This document shows, in pieces, positions 32,269 through 55,775 of a stretch of 64,000 nucleotides of DNA. A program made the position numbers and the translations under genes. The DNA comes from Rhodospirillales bacterium (GTDB lineage: Bacteria; Pseudomonadota; Alphaproteobacteria; SP197). The notes under the pieces are model-generated. The model had not been told where the DNA came from and ran no database searches. It saw only the letters and a program-made list of their open reading frames with translations. The DNA is taken from assembly GCA_014323865.1 (NCBI GenBank), contig JACONG010000004.1:114841-178840 (forward strand). Direction: 5' to 3'. Position 1 is the stretch's first letter; the number at the start of each line of letters is the position of its first letter.

Positions 32269-32550
32269 TCATATCTTCCAGAAGACGAATCCGGCCCAGG
32301 CAATCGCGATAGCGAGTGGACCCCAGAGCGGGGTTCCCATCAGGGCGAGCCAGCCCAGGAAGATGAAGGCCGAGCCCAGGAGCGAGATGAACAGGCGGTC
32401 GCCGCGGGTGGTAATGATTCCGAGGATGCCGTCGCGCGGGCCACCGCCTGGCATGCGCCATTCCCAGAACCCGATCGCCGCAATTGAGGCGAAGACAAAG
32501 GTGAAGAAGCCGGCTGTCTCCCAGGTCCATGCCATCCATTCGAGGCCCAT
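32269..32550 (-). CDS. glpU: DUF2160 small membrane protein of glycerol importer
   Basis: A 93-residue protein with three hydrophobic segments (ETAGFFTFVFASIAAIGFWEW, shortened: TAGFFTFVFASIAAIGF; LFISLLGSAFIFLGWLALM, shortened: LFISLLGSAFIFLGWLA; and LWGPLAIAIAWAGFVFW). DUF2160 proteins accompany Glp-type ABC glycerol importers (rhizobial glpVPQSTU). The role is unknown, perhaps assembly or regulation of the permease. Last gene of the importer operon, 12 bases after glpQ. Confidence 0.8.
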   Translation of the reverse strand: MGLEWMAWTWETAGFFTFVFASIAAIGFWEWRMPGGGPRDGILGIITTRGDRLFISLLGSAFIFLGWLALMGTPLWGPLAIAIAWAGFVFWKI

Positions 32551-32562
32551 GGTTCTGCCTCC

Positions 32563-33360
<798 letters not shown>

Positions 33361-33373
33361 GCGCTTGCCCCCG

Positions 33374-34240
33374 TCACTTCGAATCGTGCCGTGTCATCAC
33401 GGTGTAGAAGATCCACGAGAACAGCAGCGTGATGAGGAAGTAGATCAGCGACATGGCGGCAGCGGGCCCCAGGTCGAACTGGCCGAGCGCCATCTTGACG
33501 AGATCGATTGACAGCAACGTGGTCGCGTTGCCGGGACCGCCACCCGTTAGCACGAAGGGCTCGGTGTATATCATGAAGCTGTCCATGAAGCGCAGCAGGA
33601 CGGCGATGGTCAGAACCCGGCGCAGCTTTGGAAGCTGGATGTGGCGGAACACGGCCCAGGGCTTGGCGCCGTCGATCGACGCGGCCTGGTAGTAGGCGTC
33701 CGGGATCGAGAGCAGACCGGCATAGGTCAGCAGCACGACCAGCGAGGTCCAGTGCCAGACATCCATCACGATAATGGTGATCCAGGCCGAGACCGGCTGC
33801 CGGGTCATGTTGTAGTCGATGCCGATCCAGTTCAGCGTGTAGCCGAGCATGCCGATGTCGGGCAGCGTGAAGATGTTCCACATGGAACCGACGACGTTCC
33901 AGGGGATCAGCAGAGGCAGCGCCATCAGAACCAGGCAGACCGGAACCCAGATTCCCTTCTTCGGCATCGCAAGCGCGATAATGATGCCGAGTGGCACCTC
34001 GATCAGAAGGATCGTGAAGGTGAACAGCAGCTGTCGTCCGAGCGCGTCGTGAAAGCGCGACGATGTCAGCAGGTCCTCGAACCAGCCAATGCCGTGCCAG
34101 AAGAACTGATTGTTGCCGAAGGTTTCCTGGACCGAATAGTTCACGACGGTCATCAGCGGTACGAGCGCGTTGAACGCCACCAGCAGCACGACGGGAACGA
34201 CAAGGAACCAGGCGGAGTGGCGCAGGGTCTTGGTTGGCAT
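33374..34240 (-). CDS. glpP: Glycerol ABC transporter permease
   Basis: A 288-residue permease of the MalF/UgpA type, six hydrophobic segments beginning AWFLVVPVVLLVAFNALVP. The EAA loop is YYQAASIDGAKPWAVFRHI. It pairs with GlpQ, and lies 3 bases after glpT. Operon context identifies the substrate as glycerol rather than sn-glycerol-3-phosphate. Confidence 0.88.
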   Translation of the reverse strand: MPTKTLRHSAWFLVVPVVLLVAFNALVPLMTVVNYSVQETFGNNQFFWHGIGWFEDLLTSSRFHDALGRQLLFTFTILLIEVPLGIIIALAMPKKGIWVPVCLVLMALPLLIPWNVVGSMWNIFTLPDIGMLGYTLNWIGIDYNMTRQPVSAWITIIVMDVWHWTSLVVLLTYAGLLSIPDAYYQAASIDGAKPWAVFRHIQLPKLRRVLTIAVLLRFMDSFMIYTEPFVLTGGGPGNATTLLSIDLVKMALGQFDLGPAAAMSLIYFLITLLFSWIFYTVMTRHDSK

Positions 34241-34243
34241 GAC

Positions 34244-35323
34244 TCAGGCGCTCCCCGGGTCTTCGACGAGCCAGCCGTCCCGGTAGACCCGGGCATGATC
34301 GGCGTCGAACGCAAGATGGGCCGGTCCCGCCGAAGGGCGTTCGTCCTTGCGGCTCAGCAGATGAATGCGGTCGTTGCCTGCCATTGCCGTCACCACGCAG
34401 TGGCGACCGACGTCCGCCACGTTGACGATCTCGACGGGCAGTCCGGCATCGGACAGATGGACATGCTCGGGCCGTACGCCGAGCTCCAGTGTGCCCCTCC
34501 CGCCGCCATGGGGTGTCGTGGCGGTCGGAACCTTGACGCCGCCTACACTGACGCTGCCGTTGTCGACTTCGCAGGGGATGATGTTCATGCCCGGAGAGCC
34601 GATAAAGTAGCCGACGAAGGTATGCGCCGGCCGCTCGAACAACTCGATCGGTGTGCCGACCTGAACGACCTCGCCCTCGCGCATCACCACGACCTGGTCA
34701 GCAAAGGTCAGCGCCTCGGTCTGGTCATGGGTGACGTAGATCATGGTGGTGCCGACCGTCTGGTGCAGCTCCTTCAGCTTTGAGCGCAGACGCCACTTGA
34801 GATGTGGATCGATCACGGTCAGCGGCTCGTCGAACATGATGACGTTCACGTCCTTGCGCACCAGTCCGCGGCCCATCGAGAGCTTCTGCTTCACGTCGGG
34901 TGTGAGGCCCGAGGCGCGTTTGCGAAGCATGTCGTCAAGTTCCAGCAAGCCGGAGAGCTCGCGAACCCGCTCCTCGATCTCGCTCCGCGGCACGCCGCGG
35001 TTGCGCAGCGGAAAGGCCAGATTCTCGTAGACGGTCATGGTGTCGTAGATCACCGGGAACTGGAAAACCTGGGCAATGTTGCGCTGCGACGGTGGCAGAT
35101 CGGTCACGTCGTTGTCGTCGAACAGGACGCGTCCGTGTGACGGTGAGACCAGGCCCGAGATGATGTTGAGCAGTGTCGTCTTGCCGCAGCCCGAAGGGCC
35201 GAGCAGGGCATAGGCGCCACCGTCGTTCCATGCGAGATGGAGCCCCTTGAGAGCGTACGCGTCGGGTGACTGGTTGGCTGGATCGTAGCTGTGCTTGAGA
35301 TCCTGAAGTCGGATGCGTGCCAT
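34244..35323 (-). CDS. glpT: Glycerol ABC transporter ATP-binding protein with degenerate signature
   Basis: A 359-residue ATPase of the MalK/UgpC type with a C-terminal regulatory OB domain. Walker A GPSGCGKT (42-49), Q88, Walker B VIMFDE (161-166) and switch H199 (YVTHDQTEA) are canonical. The ABC signature LSGGQ is replaced by LTPDV (140-144, in ASGLTPDVKQKLSMGRGL). The second ATPase, GlpS, has the opposite defect, so the pair should form one normal and one degenerate site. Lies 9 bases after glpS. Confidence 0.88.
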   Translation of the reverse strand: MARIRLQDLKHSYDPANQSPDAYALKGLHLAWNDGGAYALLGPSGCGKTTLLNIISGLVSPSHGRVLFDDNDVTDLPPSQRNIAQVFQFPVIYDTMTVYENLAFPLRNRGVPRSEIEERVRELSGLLELDDMLRKRASGLTPDVKQKLSMGRGLVRKDVNVIMFDEPLTVIDPHLKWRLRSKLKELHQTVGTTMIYVTHDQTEALTFADQVVVMREGEVVQVGTPIELFERPAHTFVGYFIGSPGMNIIPCEVDNGSVSVGGVKVPTATTPHGGGRGTLELGVRPEHVHLSDAGLPVEIVNVADVGRHCVVTAMAGNDRIHLLSRKDERPSAGPAHLAFDADHARVYRDGWLVEDPGSA

Positions 35324-35332
35324 CTGCTGTCC

Positions 35333-36400
35333 TCAGGCCGCCAGCCGTGTGCCGTCGGGCATGAAATAGAGACAGCCCGCCGTGGCCATGTGGAAGGTGT
35401 GGCTTTCGCCGATGCTGTAGCTGTGGACGCCATGGCTGAGCGAGACCCAGACGTTCTCGCCGAACGCGAAATGCGCCGTGCTCTCCGAGCCTGAAAGCTC
35501 GGTAATCAGGACACGGCCAGTGATCTCGGTGACGACGCCATCGGATGCGATCGGTGAGATGTAATGCGGGCGGATGGCGACGATATAGTCGCCATCGGCA
35601 GCCGTTTCGATCGGGCCGTGTGCCGTCCAGGCGATGTCGGCACTCAGCTTGATCCGGTCGCCGCGCTTGGTGACACGTGCGGTGTTGATCGGCGGGTCAG
35701 AGAAGGCCCGGCTCGTCACGAGGTTCGTCGGCTGGCGGTAGACCTTGGCGGTATCGCCGACCTGGGTGACGCGGCCCTCGTGCAGCGCGACCGTGCGCCC
35801 GACCAGCATCAGCGCCTCGCTCGGCTCCGACGTGGCGTAGACCACCAGTGCGTTGCGCCCTCTCAGAAGGCGCGGCAACTCCTCGCGCAGCTCCTCGCGG
35901 AGTTTGTAGTCGAGATTGACCAACGGTTCGTCGAGCAGAACCAGGTCGCTGTCCTTGACCAGTGCGCGTGCGAGCGCCGTGCGCTGTTGCTGACCGCCCG
36001 ACAGCTCGGCGGGGCGCCGCGAAAGAAACGGCTCGAGCTTCAGGAGCGCTGCGGTCTCCTGGACGCGGCGCTTGATCTCGGCCTTTGGAACGCCCGCCAC
36101 ACGCAGGGGCGAGGCGATGTTTTCGAAGACACTCATGTGCGGATAGTTCACGAAGAACTGGTGCACCAGGCTCACGTTGCGCTTCTGGGTGCGCACGTGT
36201 GTAACGTTCTCGCCGTTGAACCAGATTTCCCCGGAGCTCGGGCGGTCGAGATGCGCCATCATCTTGATGAGCGTCGTCTTGCCCGCGTTTGTTGCGCCCA
36301 GCAGCACATTGAAACCGTCGGGCGCCAGCGAGAAGGAACACTCGTGAATGTGGGTCTCGGCGCCGACGTGCTTGGCGACGTTGCGGAATTCCAGGGTCAT
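35333..36400 (-). CDS. glpS: Glycerol ABC transporter ATP-binding protein lacking the switch histidine
   Basis: A 355-residue ATPase. Walker A GATNAGKT (35-42), Q81, signature LSGGQ (133-137) and Walker B LVLLDE (153-158) are canonical, but the switch histidine is Ser191 (VVYATSEPSEAL instead of VTHD). A C-terminal TOBE-like domain follows. The ATG at 36400 (MTLEFRNVAKH) is preferred; the frame is open to 36571 but that runs into glpV. It is separated from glpV by a 130-base gap with a strong stem-loop. Confidence 0.88.
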   Translation of the reverse strand: MTLEFRNVAKHVGAETHIHECSFSLAPDGFNVLLGATNAGKTTLIKMMAHLDRPSSGEIWFNGENVTHVRTQKRNVSLVHQFFVNYPHMSVFENIASPLRVAGVPKAEIKRRVQETAALLKLEPFLSRRPAELSGGQQQRTALARALVKDSDLVLLDEPLVNLDYKLREELREELPRLLRGRNALVVYATSEPSEALMLVGRTVALHEGRVTQVGDTAKVYRQPTNLVTSRAFSDPPINTARVTKRGDRIKLSADIAWTAHGPIETAADGDYIVAIRPHYISPIASDGVVTEITGRVLITELSGSESTAHFAFGENVWVSLSHGVHSYSIGESHTFHMATAGCLYFMPDGTRLAA

Positions 36401-36530: not shown

Positions 36531-38276
36531 TTACTCGGCCGCGTCGGCCCAGCGACCGATGAGCTCCTCATAGGCGATCGTCACGCCCCGGGGCTTCTCA
36601 TTTTCCAGCATGGGCTTCGGTGAACCGGGCTGCGACAGCCAGTACTCCGGATCGCTCTCCTCGTTGAGGCGCGGTCCGCAACCACCGTAGACATCGGCAC
36701 CTTCGTCGGCGGCCTGCATACGCGCCATGACCTGGTCCATCTCGCTGGCGAGACGATCCATGGCTTCCTGCGCGGTGAAGGCACCCGAGTTCACGTCACC
36801 GATCTGCTGCCACCAGATCTGGGCCAGCTTGGGATAGTCGGGAACGTTGACGCCCGTCGGGGTCCACAGCACGCGGTCGGGCGAGCGGTAGAACTCCACG
36901 AGGCCGCCCAGCGCAGGTGCGCGCTCGGTGAAGCTCTTGTGGTTGACGGTGCTGTCACGGATGAAGGTCAGGCCGACATGGCTCTTCTTCACGTCGACGG
37001 TCTTGGACACCACGAACTGGGCATAGAGCCAGGCAGCCATGGCGCGATCGGTCGGCGTCGAGTTCAGGATCGTCCACGAACCGGCGTCCTGATAGCCGAG
37101 CTTCTGGCCTTCCTCCCAGTAGGGACCCTTCGGGCTGGGCGCCATCCGCCACAGCGGCATGCCGTCTTCATCGACCGTGTTGTTGCCGTCTTCCCGGGAC
37201 TCCACCATCGACGCGGTGAAGGCCGTGTACCAGAAGACCTGCTGGGCGACGTTGCCCTGGGCGAGGGCCGGCAGTGACTGGTAGAAGTCGTAGCTGGCAG
37301 CCGCCGGCGGGGCGTAGGCGCGGAGCCACTCGTCCCACTTGCGGATCGCGTAGACCGCTGCAGGGCCGTTGGCAGCGCCGCCGCGGCTGACGCTGGCGCC
37401 AACCGGATTGCAGCTGCCTTCTTCCATGCGGATACCCCACTCGTCGACGGGCACGCCGTTCGGCAGGCCGATGTCGCCAGCGCCGGCCATGGAGAGCCAC
37501 GCATCGGTCATGCGCCAGCCGAGGTCGGGAGCGCGCTTGCCGTAGTCCATGTGCCCGTAGACTTCGACGCCATCGATCTCGCCGACATGCACCGAGAAGA
37601 ACTCGGCGATGTCCTCATAAGCCGACCAGTTGACCGGCACACCGAGATCGTAGCCGTAGATCTCCTTGAACTGCGCCTGGAAGTCCTCGCGGTCGAACCA
37701 GTCCTTGCGGAACCAGTAGAGGTTGGCGAACTGCTGGTCGGGAAGCTGATACAGGTCGCCATCGGGGCCCGTCGTGAACGCGATGCCGATGAAGTCGTCC
37801 AGGTCCAGATTGGGGTTCGTCACCGCCGCAGCTTCGCCGGCCATCCAGTCGGTCAGGTTGACCGCGAGCTGCAGGCGCGCGTGGGTGCCGATCAGGTCAC
37901 TGTCGTTGATGTAGGCGTCGTAAAGGTTCCGACCCGTCTGCATCTGGGTCTGCACCGCCTGCACCACTTCGCCTTCGCCAAGCAACTGGTGGTTGACCTT
38001 TATGCCGGTGATGTCCTCGAACGCCTGCGTCAGGACTTCAGATTCGTAAGTGTGCGTCGGAATCGTCTCCGACAGCACGTTGATTTCCATGCCGGCGTAC
38101 GGCTTGGCGGCTTCGATGAACCACTCCATCTCGGCCATCTGTTCCTCGACTGTCAGAGTCGAGGGTTGGAACTCTTCGTTCACCCACGTCTCCGCAGCCG
38201 CCATCTCGGCCCATGCCGACGATGCCGAACTGGCCATCGCCAAACCGGCGGCGGCTGCAACAATGCGATTGCGCAT
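36531..38276 (-). CDS. glpV: Glycerol ABC transporter substrate-binding protein
   Basis: A 581-residue periplasmic binding protein; long for its class but normal for GlpV-type proteins. Signal peptide at 1-23 (AAAAGLAMASSASSAWAEM). Cluster 1-type features include MEINVLSETIPTHTYESEVL and GDLYQLPDQQFANLYWFRKDW (shortened: GDLYQLPDQQFANLYWFR). First gene of the importer operon, divergent from glpR, which probably controls it from the 130-base shared gap. Confidence 0.88.
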   Translation of the reverse strand: MRNRIVAAAAGLAMASSASSAWAEMAAAETWVNEEFQPSTLTVEEQMAEMEWFIEAAKPYAGMEINVLSETIPTHTYESEVLTQAFEDITGIKVNHQLLGEGEVVQAVQTQMQTGRNLYDAYINDSDLIGTHARLQLAVNLTDWMAGEAAAVTNPNLDLDDFIGIAFTTGPDGDLYQLPDQQFANLYWFRKDWFDREDFQAQFKEIYGYDLGVPVNWSAYEDIAEFFSVHVGEIDGVEVYGHMDYGKRAPDLGWRMTDAWLSMAGAGDIGLPNGVPVDEWGIRMEEGSCNPVGASVSRGGAANGPAAVYAIRKWDEWLRAYAPPAAASYDFYQSLPALAQGNVAQQVFWYTAFTASMVESREDGNNTVDEDGMPLWRMAPSPKGPYWEEGQKLGYQDAGSWTILNSTPTDRAMAAWLYAQFVVSKTVDVKKSHVGLTFIRDSTVNHKSFTERAPALGGLVEFYRSPDRVLWTPTGVNVPDYPKLAQIWWQQIGDVNSGAFTAQEAMDRLASEMDQVMARMQAADEGADVYGGCGPRLNEESDPEYWLSQPGSPKPMLENEKPRGVTIAYEELIGRWADAAE

Positions 38277-38399: not shown

Positions 38400-38426
38400 A
38401 CGAACATGACTCGCGGATCGTCACCC

Positions 38427-39209
38427 ATGGTTCTGAGCGACCGTCAATCGCTCATCATGGCCCGTCTGCGCACCGAAGGGCGTGTTCTGGTCGACGATCT
38501 CGCGGTTGACTTCCAGGTCACAACGCAGACGATCCGGCGAGATCTCAACATCCTCAGTGCCGACGGATTGATCACGCGGATCCACGGCGGCGCCGTTCAG
38601 GCGGCCAGCACGACCATTCTTGCCTATACCGAACGGCGTTCGCTGGCTCTCGACGAGAAACGGGCGATTGCGCGTCATGCGGCGGCCATGATTCCGGACG
38701 GCTGTTCGCTCACCATCAACATTGCCACCACGACGGAACAGGTCGCTCATGCCCTGCGCGACAAGCGCGACCTCTTTGTCGTCACGAACAACATCAACGT
38801 GGTCAACATCCTGTCGGGCACACCGGCCAAGGAGATCATTCTGGCGGGCGGTGCAGTGCGCCAGACCGATGGTGCGATCGTCGGTGACGAAGCGGTCGAC
38901 TTCATCCGCAAGTTCCGGACAGACTATGCCGTGATCGGCGCCTCCGCACTCGATGCCGACGGCTCCATCATGGACTTCGATGTGCGTGAGGTTGCCGTTG
39001 CACGGGCCATCGCGGCCAACGCACGCCGCACCATCCTCGTCAGCGACCACACCAAGTTCAGCCGCAGCGCGCCGGTCCGGATCTGTCCCCTGGGCCAGAT
39101 CGACTTCTTCGTCACCGACCGGGCGCCGCCGCCCTCGTTCGTCGAAGCCTGCGACGCCGAAGATGTCGCGATCGAGATCACCGTGCCCGGAGTATCCGAT
39201 GACGCGTGA
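38427..39209 (+). CDS. glpR: DeoR-family transcriptional regulator of glycerol genes
   Basis: A 260-residue repressor: N-terminal helix-turn-helix (LSDRQSLIMARLRTEGRVLV, then DFQVTTQTIRRDLNILS and RIHGGAV) and a C-terminal sugar-phosphate-sensing DeoRC domain (ASALDADGSIMDFDVREVAV). Family members sense glycerol-3-phosphate. ATG 38427 (MVLSDRQ) is chosen; ATG 38406, seven codons earlier, is also possible and neither has a strong ribosome site. It overlaps glpD by 11 bases and is divergent from glpV, which fits local control of both. Confidence 0.88.
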   Translation: MVLSDRQSLIMARLRTEGRVLVDDLAVDFQVTTQTIRRDLNILSADGLITRIHGGAVQAASTTILAYTERRSLALDEKRAIARHAAAMIPDGCSLTINIATTTEQVAHALRDKRDLFVVTNNINVVNILSGTPAKEIILAGGAVRQTDGAIVGDEAVDFIRKFRTDYAVIGASALDADGSIMDFDVREVAVARAIAANARRTILVSDHTKFSRSAPVRICPLGQIDFFVTDRAPPPSFVEACDAEDVAIEITVPGVSDDA

Positions 39210-40779
39210 ACCGGGCAGCATCGTCGACCTCGCCATCATCGGTGGCGGAATCAACGGCTGCGGGATCGCCCGCGATGCCGCCGGGCGGGGTCTCAGTGTC
39301 TACCTCTGTGAACAGGGCGATCTCGGCCAAGGCACGTCATCGGCCTCGACCAAGCTCTTTCACGGCGGCCTGCGTTATCTGGAACACTACGAGTTCCGCC
39401 TGGTGCGCGAGGCGCTCGAAGAGCGCGAGGTGCTCTTGCGCACCATGCCGCATATCTCATGGCCGCTGCGCTTTGTGCTGCCGCACCATCCGGGCCTCAG
39501 GCCCGCCTGGCTGATCCGGCTTGGCCTGTTCATCTACGATCATCTCGGCGGTCGGAAGCGGCTGCCGCCCACCCGAAGCATCGATTTTCGGAAGGACCCG
39601 ACCGGCAATCCGCTTCAGGATCGCTTCCGCCGCGGCTTCGAGTACTCCGACTGCTGGATCGATGATGCGCGACTGGTGGTTCTCAACGCCCGGGCGGCAA
39701 CCGATCTGGGAGCGGAGGTCGCGGTCCGAACACGCTGTCTCGAAGCGCGGCGCGACAACGGGCTCTGGCTCCTGACATTGGAGGACACCGAGACCGGCGC
39801 ACGGTCGGAGATCATGGCGCGCGGACTGGTCAACGCATCGGGACCGTGGGTCGAGGACGTGATTCAGAACCGTCTGCGGCACAACAGCGCCGCCCGCATC
39901 CGTCTCGTCAAGGGCAGCCACATTGTGGTTCGCAGACTGTTCGAACACGATCGCGCCTACATCTTCCAGAACGCCGACGGCCGTATTGTCTTCGCGATTC
40001 CCTACGAGACCGACTACACGCTGGTCGGCACCACCGATGAAGATCATGACGGATCGCCAGAAGCGGCGTGCTGCAGCGATGCCGAGCGGACCTATCTCTG
40101 TTCCGCCGTCTCCGAGTATCTCGATCGCCCGGTCGTGGACGATGACATCGTCTGGACCTACTCGGGCGTTCGCCCTCTCTACGACAATGGTGCCATCTCG
40201 AACACGGCCGCGACACGGGATTACAAGCTGGAACTCGAGGAGGCCGGCGGTGCGGCGCCGCTGCTTAACGTCTTCGGCGGCAAGATCACGACCTACAGGC
40301 GTCTGTCGGAGGCCGCTCTCGCGAAGCTCTGGCCCTATTATACGCACATGACAGGCCCCTGGACCGCCGACGTCAGTCTTCCGGGCGGTGACTTTGACGT
40401 CGATGGTGTGGAACGGCTGACGCGCGACCTGGCATCGCGCTACCCCTTCCTGGGTGACGATTGGGCCGGACGGCTGATCCGGCTCTATGGCACGCTCGCG
40501 TTCGACCTTCTCGGCACCGCGGCCAGCCTTACCGATATGGGCACACGTTTCGGCGCCGATCTTACGGAACGCGAGGTTGTGTGGCTGATCGACCGGGAGT
40601 GGGCGCGGACCGCCGAGGATGCACTCTGGCGCCGCACCAAGCTGGGGCTTGTCCTGTCACGCGAGGAGGCGCGCGAGCTGGAGAGCTGGCTGGCGGAGCG
40701 ATTCGGCAAGGTGGCTCCGGCGCACGTCACCGGAGCCCGTCAGGCGTCCCCGAGCCAGAGAATATCCCGTTCAGATTGA
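39199..40779 (+). CDS. glpD: Aerobic glycerol-3-phosphate dehydrogenase
   Basis: Membrane-associated flavoenzyme feeding electrons to quinones. The 526 residues begin with the FAD motif DLAIIGGGINGCGIARDAAG, then SSASTKLFHGGLRYLEHYEF, GPWVEDVI and the C-terminal FGGKITTYRRLSE plus a helical cap. It starts inside the glpR 3' end. The last codons (ISRSD and the stop) lie inside the dispersed repeat 40762-40831, so the natural C-terminus seems to have been replaced by repeat sequence. Confidence 0.94.
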   Translation: MTREPGSIVDLAIIGGGINGCGIARDAAGRGLSVYLCEQGDLGQGTSSASTKLFHGGLRYLEHYEFRLVREALEEREVLLRTMPHISWPLRFVLPHHPGLRPAWLIRLGLFIYDHLGGRKRLPPTRSIDFRKDPTGNPLQDRFRRGFEYSDCWIDDARLVVLNARAATDLGAEVAVRTRCLEARRDNGLWLLTLEDTETGARSEIMARGLVNASGPWVEDVIQNRLRHNSAARIRLVKGSHIVVRRLFEHDRAYIFQNADGRIVFAIPYETDYTLVGTTDEDHDGSPEAACCSDAERTYLCSAVSEYLDRPVVDDDIVWTYSGVRPLYDNGAISNTAATRDYKLELEEAGGAAPLLNVFGGKITTYRRLSEAALAKLWPYYTHMTGPWTADVSLPGGDFDVDGVERLTRDLASRYPFLGDDWAGRLIRLYGTLAFDLLGTAASLTDMGTRFGADLTEREVVWLIDREWARTAEDALWRRTKLGLVLSREEARELESWLAERFGKVAPAHVTGARQASPSQRISRSD

Positions 40780-54284: not shown

Positions 54285-55775
54285 TCAGTCGCCGCTCAGG
54301 GTCCGTCGCACGGCGGCGCGCCACCCTGCGTAGTGCATGTCGGCATCCTTGCGGTCCCGTTCGGGGGTGAAGCGGCGCTCGCGCGCCCAATCGGTGCTGA
54401 AACCGTCCATGTCGGGCCAGACACCGGCCCGGTGACCGGCCAGCCAGGCCGCTCCGAGGGCAGTGGTCTCGGTGATCCCGGGCCGGTCCACGGTCGCCCC
54501 CGAGATGTCGGCCAGCGCCTGCATGGTCCAGTCGCTGGCGGTCATGCCGCCATCGACCCGCAGAACGGTCCCGGCGTCCGCGTCACGCCAGTCGGTCCGC
54601 ATGGCTTCAAGCAGATCCCGGGTCTGGAAGGCCACGCTCTCCAGTGCGGCGCGGGCCAGCTCCCTGGGCCCGGTGCTGCGGGTCAGGCCGAACATGGCGC
54701 CACGTGCGTCGGCATCCCACCACGGCGCTCCGAGCCCGGTGAAGGCAGGCACGAGATAGACCCGCTGGCCGGGATCGGCAGCTTCGGCGAGCCGCTGGGT
54801 CTCGGAAGCGTCGCCGATCAGCCCGAGCCCATCGCGCAGCCACTGCACCACCGCACCGGCGATGAAGATCGAACCCTCAAGCGCGTATGTCGTCTGACCG
54901 TTGAGTCGATAGGCAATGGTGGTGAGCAGGCGATTGCTGGACGGCACGGGATCGGTACCGGTGTTGAGCAGGGCGAAGCAGCCGGTGCCGTAGGTCGATT
55001 TCATCATGCCGGGCGCAAAGCAGGCCTGCCCGATGGTCGCGGCCTGCTGGTCGCCCGCGACGCCGAGGATCGGGATCGCCGCGCCGAGAATGTCAGGGTC
55101 GGTCGTGCCGAAGTCGGCCGCGCTGTCGCGTACTTCCGGCAGCACCGACATCGGCACCCCGATCAGCGCGCAGAGCTCGGGATCCCAGAGGTTCGAGCGG
55201 ATGTCGTAGAGCATGGACCGGCTGGCATTGGTTGCATCGGTCGCGTGGACCGCACCGCCGGTCAGATGCCAGATGAGATAGCTGTCGACGGTGCCGAAGC
55301 AGAGTTCATCCGCCTCGGCCCGGGCCCGTGCGCCCTCGATGTTGTCGAGCTGCCAGGCGATCTTGGTGCCCGAGAAGTAGGGGTCGAGCAGCAGGCCGGT
55401 GCGTTCCGTGACGAGCGCCTCGTGCCCGGCGTCCTTCAGCGCCCGGCAGGTCTCGGCCGTGCGGCGGTCCTGCCAGACGATGGCGTTGTCGATCGGGCGT
55501 CCGGTCGCGCGGTCCCAGACCAGCGTCGTCTCGCGCTGGTTCGCGATGCCGATGGCGGCGATGTCCGAGGCCTGGATGCCGGCATTGGCGATCGCCTCGC
55601 GGCAGGTCTCGACCGTCGTGCGCCAGATGTCGCCGGGATCGTGTTCGACCCAGCCCGATTGCGGCAGGTGCTGGTCGAACTCCTGCTGCGCCATGGCGAC
55701 GATACGGCACCCGGCATCGAAGATCAGCGCCCGGCTTGATGTGGTGCCCTGGTCGATGGCGAGAACATGACCCAT
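54285..55775 (-). CDS. glpK: Glycerol kinase
   Basis: ATP-dependent phosphorylation of glycerol to glycerol-3-phosphate. The 496-residue FGGY kinase has [13 protein letters not shown] at the N-terminus, [58 protein letters not shown] and [21 protein letters not shown] 55775 follows AGGGAAG. Last gene after the dctPQM-type TRAP genes, not beside glpD or glpVPQSTU, 14 kb away. It supplies the missing step of the glycerol pathway in this window. Confidence 0.96.

Follow-up and report, generated by a model that had tools for sequence, protein, structure and literature searches.

The ATP-driven glycerol importer GlpSTPQUV of R. leguminosarum (PMC7912956) is the closest described counterpart of the locus analyzed here. 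It comprises two ATPases, two permeases, a DUF2160 protein, and a binding protein, and is accompanied by glpR and glpD. The nearest PDB and NCBIfam relatives of GlpS and GlpT are MalK and UgpC, which share their fold and C-terminal regulatory domain but are symmetric homodimers, with both the LSGGQ signature and the switch histidine in each copy (27/27 single-ATPase CUT1 paralogues, and E. coli UgpC). In the head-to-tail geometry of these ATPases, a site is formed by Walker A/B and the A-, Q-, and H-loops of one chain and by the signature of the other (PMC7756269). Heterodimeric exporters, such as TM287/288, BmrCD, TAP, CFTR, and Pdr5, combine one complete site with one degenerate site, in which the signature is changed. 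In many exporters of this kind the catalytic Glu is replaced, and His changes mainly accompany the loss of Glu; the conserved degenerate site of type I exporters has been proposed to serve as an ATP-holding scaffold, and the silent site of Pdr5 is reported to have a function (PMC7756269). Among importers, one degenerate site has been described in RbsA and NupO of B. subtilis (PMC11466899). It has long been asked whether a type I importer must have both of its ATP sites working.

We analyzed a stretch of 64,000 nucleotides (hereafter, the window) from a Rhodospirillales bacterium (contig JACONG010000004.1). Its minus strand carries, in the order V-S-T-P-Q-DUF2160, the genes for the substrate-binding protein GlpV (36531..38276, SBP_bac_1), the MalK-type ATPases GlpS (35333..36400, 355 aa from the ATG at 36400) and GlpT (34244..35323, 359 aa), the permeases GlpP (33374..34240) and GlpQ (32563..33360), both with BPD_transp_1, and a small DUF2160 membrane protein at the glpU position of the operon (32269..32550; PF09928, 105 bits). 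The plus strand carries a divergent glpR-like gene for a DeoR-family regulator (38424..39206; best model NF008154, 232 bits, below its 331-bit cut-off) and glpD for glycerol-3-phosphate dehydrogenase, with a start that is not fixed (39199..40779; NF008899, 775 bits, above the cut-off). This is the gene set of the R. leguminosarum-type GlpSTPQUV system, and glpK also lies within the window (54297-55769, minus strand). The operon content suggests that glycerol is the substrate of the window importer.

The ATPases of the R. leguminosarum plasmid locus have the same motif defects as those described below, but its gene order is R-D-S-T-P-Q-DUF2160-V-K. In the window, glpV precedes glpS, glpR and glpD are divergent, and glpK is ~14 kb from the operon, which it adjoins in the R. 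leguminosarum locus (L230). The upstream position of glpV is shared by the nearer relatives of the window (L051, L059, L062, L115-L126), and in the other loci where it was seen, glpV lies downstream of glpQ (L129-L164). The upstream-type GlpV proteins are closer to the window GlpV (~74-86%) than the downstream-type proteins (56-68%).

The original prediction held that GlpT keeps Walker A/B and the switch His199 with LTPDV at the signature, and that GlpS keeps LSGGQ with Ser191 in place of the switch histidine. Coordinates and residues were confirmed for both proteins, all features being on the minus strand. In GlpT, the Walker A motif GPSGCGKTT (residues 42-50) is encoded at 35174..35200, LTPDV (residues 140-144) replaces LSGGQ at 34892..34906, Walker B Asp165 and the catalytic Glu166 (FDEP) are at 34826..34831, and His199 (VTHDQ) is at 34727..34729. 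The D-loop reads TVID instead of SNLD (residues 169-172; 34808..34819). In GlpS, the Walker A motif GATNAGKTT (residues 35-43) is at 36272..36298, LSGGQ (residues 133-137) is at 35990..36004, and Walker B Asp157 and the catalytic Glu158 are retained at 35927..35932 (LLDEP). Ser191 (35828..35830) occupies the switch-histidine position in YATSEP, where relatives have YVTHDQ. The A-loop aromatic of the window GlpS is also lost, the residue being Val12.

The stretch from the Q-loop to the signature is free of gaps in the alignment of GlpS, GlpT, and MalK, except for columns gapped alike in all three. We also considered KLSMGRG, located 8 residues further on, as a shifted GlpT signature. This candidate was rejected, as it aligns with VAIGR of the helix that follows LSGGQ, and it is also excluded by the gap-free spacing and by the start of the model helix at residue 142. 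When the motifs are arranged into composite sites, the site built on the GlpS Walker motifs had been described as defective in both elements. The losses of the GlpS histidine and of the GlpT signature stand, but the description was incomplete: two further elements are lost, namely the A-loop aromatic on the GlpS side and the D-loop on the GlpT side, and GlpS still contributes Lys/Thr of Walker A, Gln of the Q-loop, and Asp/Glu of Walker B.

To examine the family, the DUF2160 gene was used as the operon marker in a sample of 398 Pseudomonadota genomes. It was present in 85, and exactly these 85 genomes contained close relatives of GlpT. We assembled 138 S-T pairs, including loci of named genomes, and later 156 Glp pairs; with seven pairs of a sister importer (see below), the total was 163. 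Motifs were read at the positions of one common alignment that included MalK. The signature of the GlpS-type proteins is LSGGQ in 163/163, and their switch position is Thr in 147, Ser in 16, and His in none. Conversely, the GlpT-type proteins have the switch His in 163/163 and LSGGQ in 0/163. Their commonest signature is LTADx, in which position 4 is Asp in 160/163 and position 5 is free. At the D-loop, 161/163 GlpT-type proteins read TVID, compared with SNLD in all 27 CUT1 paralogues, and the GlpS A-loop aromatic is almost always missing (Val in 146/163). The Walker A Lys, Q-loop Gln, and Walker B Asp and Glu are present in every GlpS and every GlpT (163/163 each).

Across the family, motif loss is thus confined to one composite site, as expected for a degenerate site. 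Clustering at 70% identity left 53 GlpT and 61 GlpS lineages with zero exceptions to the motif pattern, which is not the result of chance or drift. We looked for a GlpT with LSGGQ or a GlpS with His, either of which would contradict the original prediction, and found none among the 163 pairs. Nor was an intermediate pair with a single defect found, the nearest being an Ensifer sister pair in which the GlpT-type signature is LTAGE. The 163 orthologous and sister pairs rule out a pseudogene or a sequencing error. The GlpS and GlpT genes adjoin on the same strand in all 138 pairs checked, and the distances of the two proteins are correlated (r = 0.885, 156 pairs).

Single chains were modeled by AlphaFold2 on two alignments (A3 and A4), from which rows of plasmid records were excluded whole, with pLDDT values of 91.2 for GlpT and 92.7 for GlpS. 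The best PDB matches of both models were MalK-type ATPases, with TM scores of 0.78-0.90 among the leading ones. In the models, LTPDV lies at the start of GlpT helix 142-154 and LSGGQ at the start of GlpS helix 135-148, and S191 of GlpS and H199 of GlpT follow the same strand end. Pfam detected an OB_MalK/TOBE_2 domain in GlpT. TOBE_2 scored in 28/45 GlpS relatives and not in the window GlpS, the model of which shows a beta-rich C-terminal domain despite the lack of a Pfam score there. Both proteins therefore have the MalK-type (CUT1) fold with a C-terminal OB/TOBE domain, but neither combines LSGGQ and the switch His in one chain. Because each chain is without one of these two elements, we regard GlpS and GlpT as relatives of the MalK class and not as ordinary members.

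Through a GlpS match in Ensifer we identified another type of importer, with the gene order V'-P'-Q'-S'-T', in which the ATPase pair has the same defects as GlpS and GlpT. The class sample contains it in three genomes of alphaproteobacteria, two of them 1.3-1.4 Mb in size, and it also occurs on plasmids of Ensifer and Ponticoccus and on two Streptomyces plasmids. Its binding protein and permeases are just ~22-31% identical to their Glp counterparts. In the tree, GlpT and T' form one clade and GlpS and S' another, each with an SH-aLRT of 100 and a long stem (1.3 and 1.54 changes per column, respectively), and the joining of the S and T clades to one another is weakly supported (61). Since the Glp and sister proteins separate within both subtrees, the asymmetric pair predates the split between the two importers. 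Four weaker GlpS matches on plasmids proved to be CUT1 genes of the single-ATPase type, carrying both LSGGQ and His, and were discarded. The sister importer (L226:1579-3725, L283:1812-7282, L284, L285, L303, L304, and L306) lies beside an alcohol dehydrogenase gene in several cases, and from this neighbor we would guess that its substrate is an alcohol or polyol.

The GlpS-GlpT asymmetry is real, highly conserved, and plausibly functional. The heterodimer logic of the original prediction is supported: a complete composite site arises solely in a GlpS-GlpT dimer, and the two genes adjoin in every locus examined. Because the GlpT Walker motifs and His are complete together with the GlpS LSGGQ, and the reverse site is degenerate, an obligate heterodimer is favored. 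From the motifs, we consider it likely that this heterodimer has one hydrolytic site and a second site without useful turnover, and that it spends about one ATP per transport stroke. It would power glycerol import through GlpP/GlpQ, together with the binding protein GlpV. Site 1, in which Walker A/B, the Q-loop, and His199 of GlpT would face LSGGQ of GlpS, is predicted to hydrolyze ATP. At site 2, the GlpS Walker A/B motifs would face LTPDV and TVID of GlpT without a switch His or an A-loop aromatic, and useful turnover would not be expected. Most residues that bind phosphate and magnesium are nevertheless retained at site 2, where Lys/Thr of Walker A, Gln of the Q-loop, and Asp/Glu of Walker B do not vary, and it therefore probably holds ATP as a non-hydrolyzed support. 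With the A-loop aromatic lost, site 2 could alternatively show poor ATP binding or stay empty. The motifs and their fixation across the family, the operon, and the MalK-like folds are observed, whereas the pairing of the chains, the nucleotide bound at either site, the site activities, and the stoichiometry are inferred.

Since GlpS keeps the catalytic Glu, residual hydrolysis at site 2 may occur. Site 2 might even be hydrolytic at a slower rate, if Thr/Ser and Glu substituted for the histidine and the altered signature still closed on ATP. The invariance of the catalytic Glu, Walker A Lys, and Q-loop Gln in GlpS fits such an activity, and a review reports slow hydrolysis at degenerate sites in which Glu is changed to Asp (PMC7756269). 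We nevertheless find a slow second site unlikely. Four elements of one site are altered together in every family member, and an acidic side chain at the second glycine of the signature, where Asp is nearly fixed, would likely clash with the gamma-phosphate. Furthermore, histidine replacement in HisP and MalK left <2% of the ATPase activity (PMC6222333). The near-invariance of this Asp suggests a new contact under selection rather than decay, within the limits set by one sister protein with Gly (LTAGE) and two members with Ala or Glu. On another reading, Asp143 of GlpT would mimic the gamma-phosphate and bond the P-loop lysine of GlpS, so that site 2 would be free of nucleotide and act as an ATP-independent latch or hinge. 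A fixed position 4 next to a free position 5 does look selected, and the missing GlpS A-loop aromatic is consistent with an empty site. The three exceptional GlpT proteins argue against it, however, as do the conserved Walker B and Q-loop residues of GlpS, which would be needless if no nucleotide were bound, and we hold a nucleotide-free site to be quite unlikely.

Multitask MalK-type ATPases are known (PMC7658222), and the work might be done by GlpS and GlpT homodimers, or by either chain paired with another ATPase of the MalK type, the two genes then serving separately. We rate this as very improbable: both signatures would be defective if GlpT paired with itself, and both switch histidines would be absent if GlpS did so. 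The constant adjacency of the genes and the correlated distances also argue against it. GlpS differs from many exporters with a degenerate site in keeping the Glu and losing the His. The replacement of the catalytic Glu, frequent although not universal in those exporters, was not seen in any GlpS (Glu in 163/163).

Such asymmetry had been called little discussed in importers. This is true of the open-licence literature searched, which yielded no paper on site asymmetry in GlpST or LivFG, but the layout itself is not rare. By the same motif reading, half 1 of E. coli RbsA has LSIGD and His and half 2 has LSGGN and Ser; in E. coli MglA, the halves have LSVSQ with His and LSGGN with Ser. The fused CUT2 ATPases RbsA, MglA, and NupO resemble the Glp pair, with Walker A/B, His, and an altered signature in half 1, and LSGGN with Ser for His in half 2. 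They differ in being single fused chains that are not MalK-type, in having lost the second-half Walker A Lys, which GlpS keeps, and in having no conserved Asp. The HAAT ATPases LivG and LivF likewise divide into a His half with an altered signature and an LSGG half without His. E. coli LivG has LAYGD and His, and LivF has MSGGE and Gln (livF/livG locus L339:4725-6207). In alphaproteobacterial loci and E. coli, all 33 LivF-type proteins carry LSGGE, LSGGQ, or MSGGE, and their switch residue is Gln in 28 cases and Lys in 5. All 31 LivG-type proteins have His, and just 2/31 have LSGGQ. In contrast to the Glp pair, these are short ATPases of another family, in which LivG signatures are variable and often keep the second glycine, and LivF has Gln/Lys instead of Thr/Ser for the histidine. 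The catalytic Glu is retained in both halves of the RbsA/MglA- and LivG/LivF-type ATPases.

By these motif readings, this division of labor appears to extend to a third importer family, GlpST, and is first noticed here in the MalK class. The separate origins of the three are inferred because their ATPase families differ. We tentatively extend the comparison to a broader proposal, which we think possible but on balance doubtful. The GlpT signature would be a new motif, L-[T/S]-[A/P]-D, with its Asp touching the GlpS P-loop in trans and site 2 serving as a permanent latch. The same division, with the signature lost in one half, His lost in the other, and both Glu kept, would have arisen separately in the three families as the route of importers, as opposed to the Glu loss of many exporters.

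Four points seem to be new: the presence of this asymmetry among MalK/CUT1 ATPases, the fixation of the pattern, the Asp conserved in the GlpT signature, and the existence of a sister importer that has the same pair. In GlpST, evolution has seemingly fixed one site of a natural importer of the MalK class, and this allows ATP cost per substrate, the role of the silent site, and site restoration to be tested directly against the symmetric MalK/UgpC. The interest lies in this one-site importer and in the three-family parallel rather than in a new principle. Judging by the resemblance to LivFG and RbsA, importer asymmetry seems common and overlooked. The genome from which the window derives also encodes a LivF/LivG pair with complementary motif loss (contig C16:235000-237800) and an RbsA-like fused ATPase (contig C5:4400-7000), with LSVAD and His in half 1, and LSGGN, Ser, and the Walker A sequence GLVGSGRTE in half 2.
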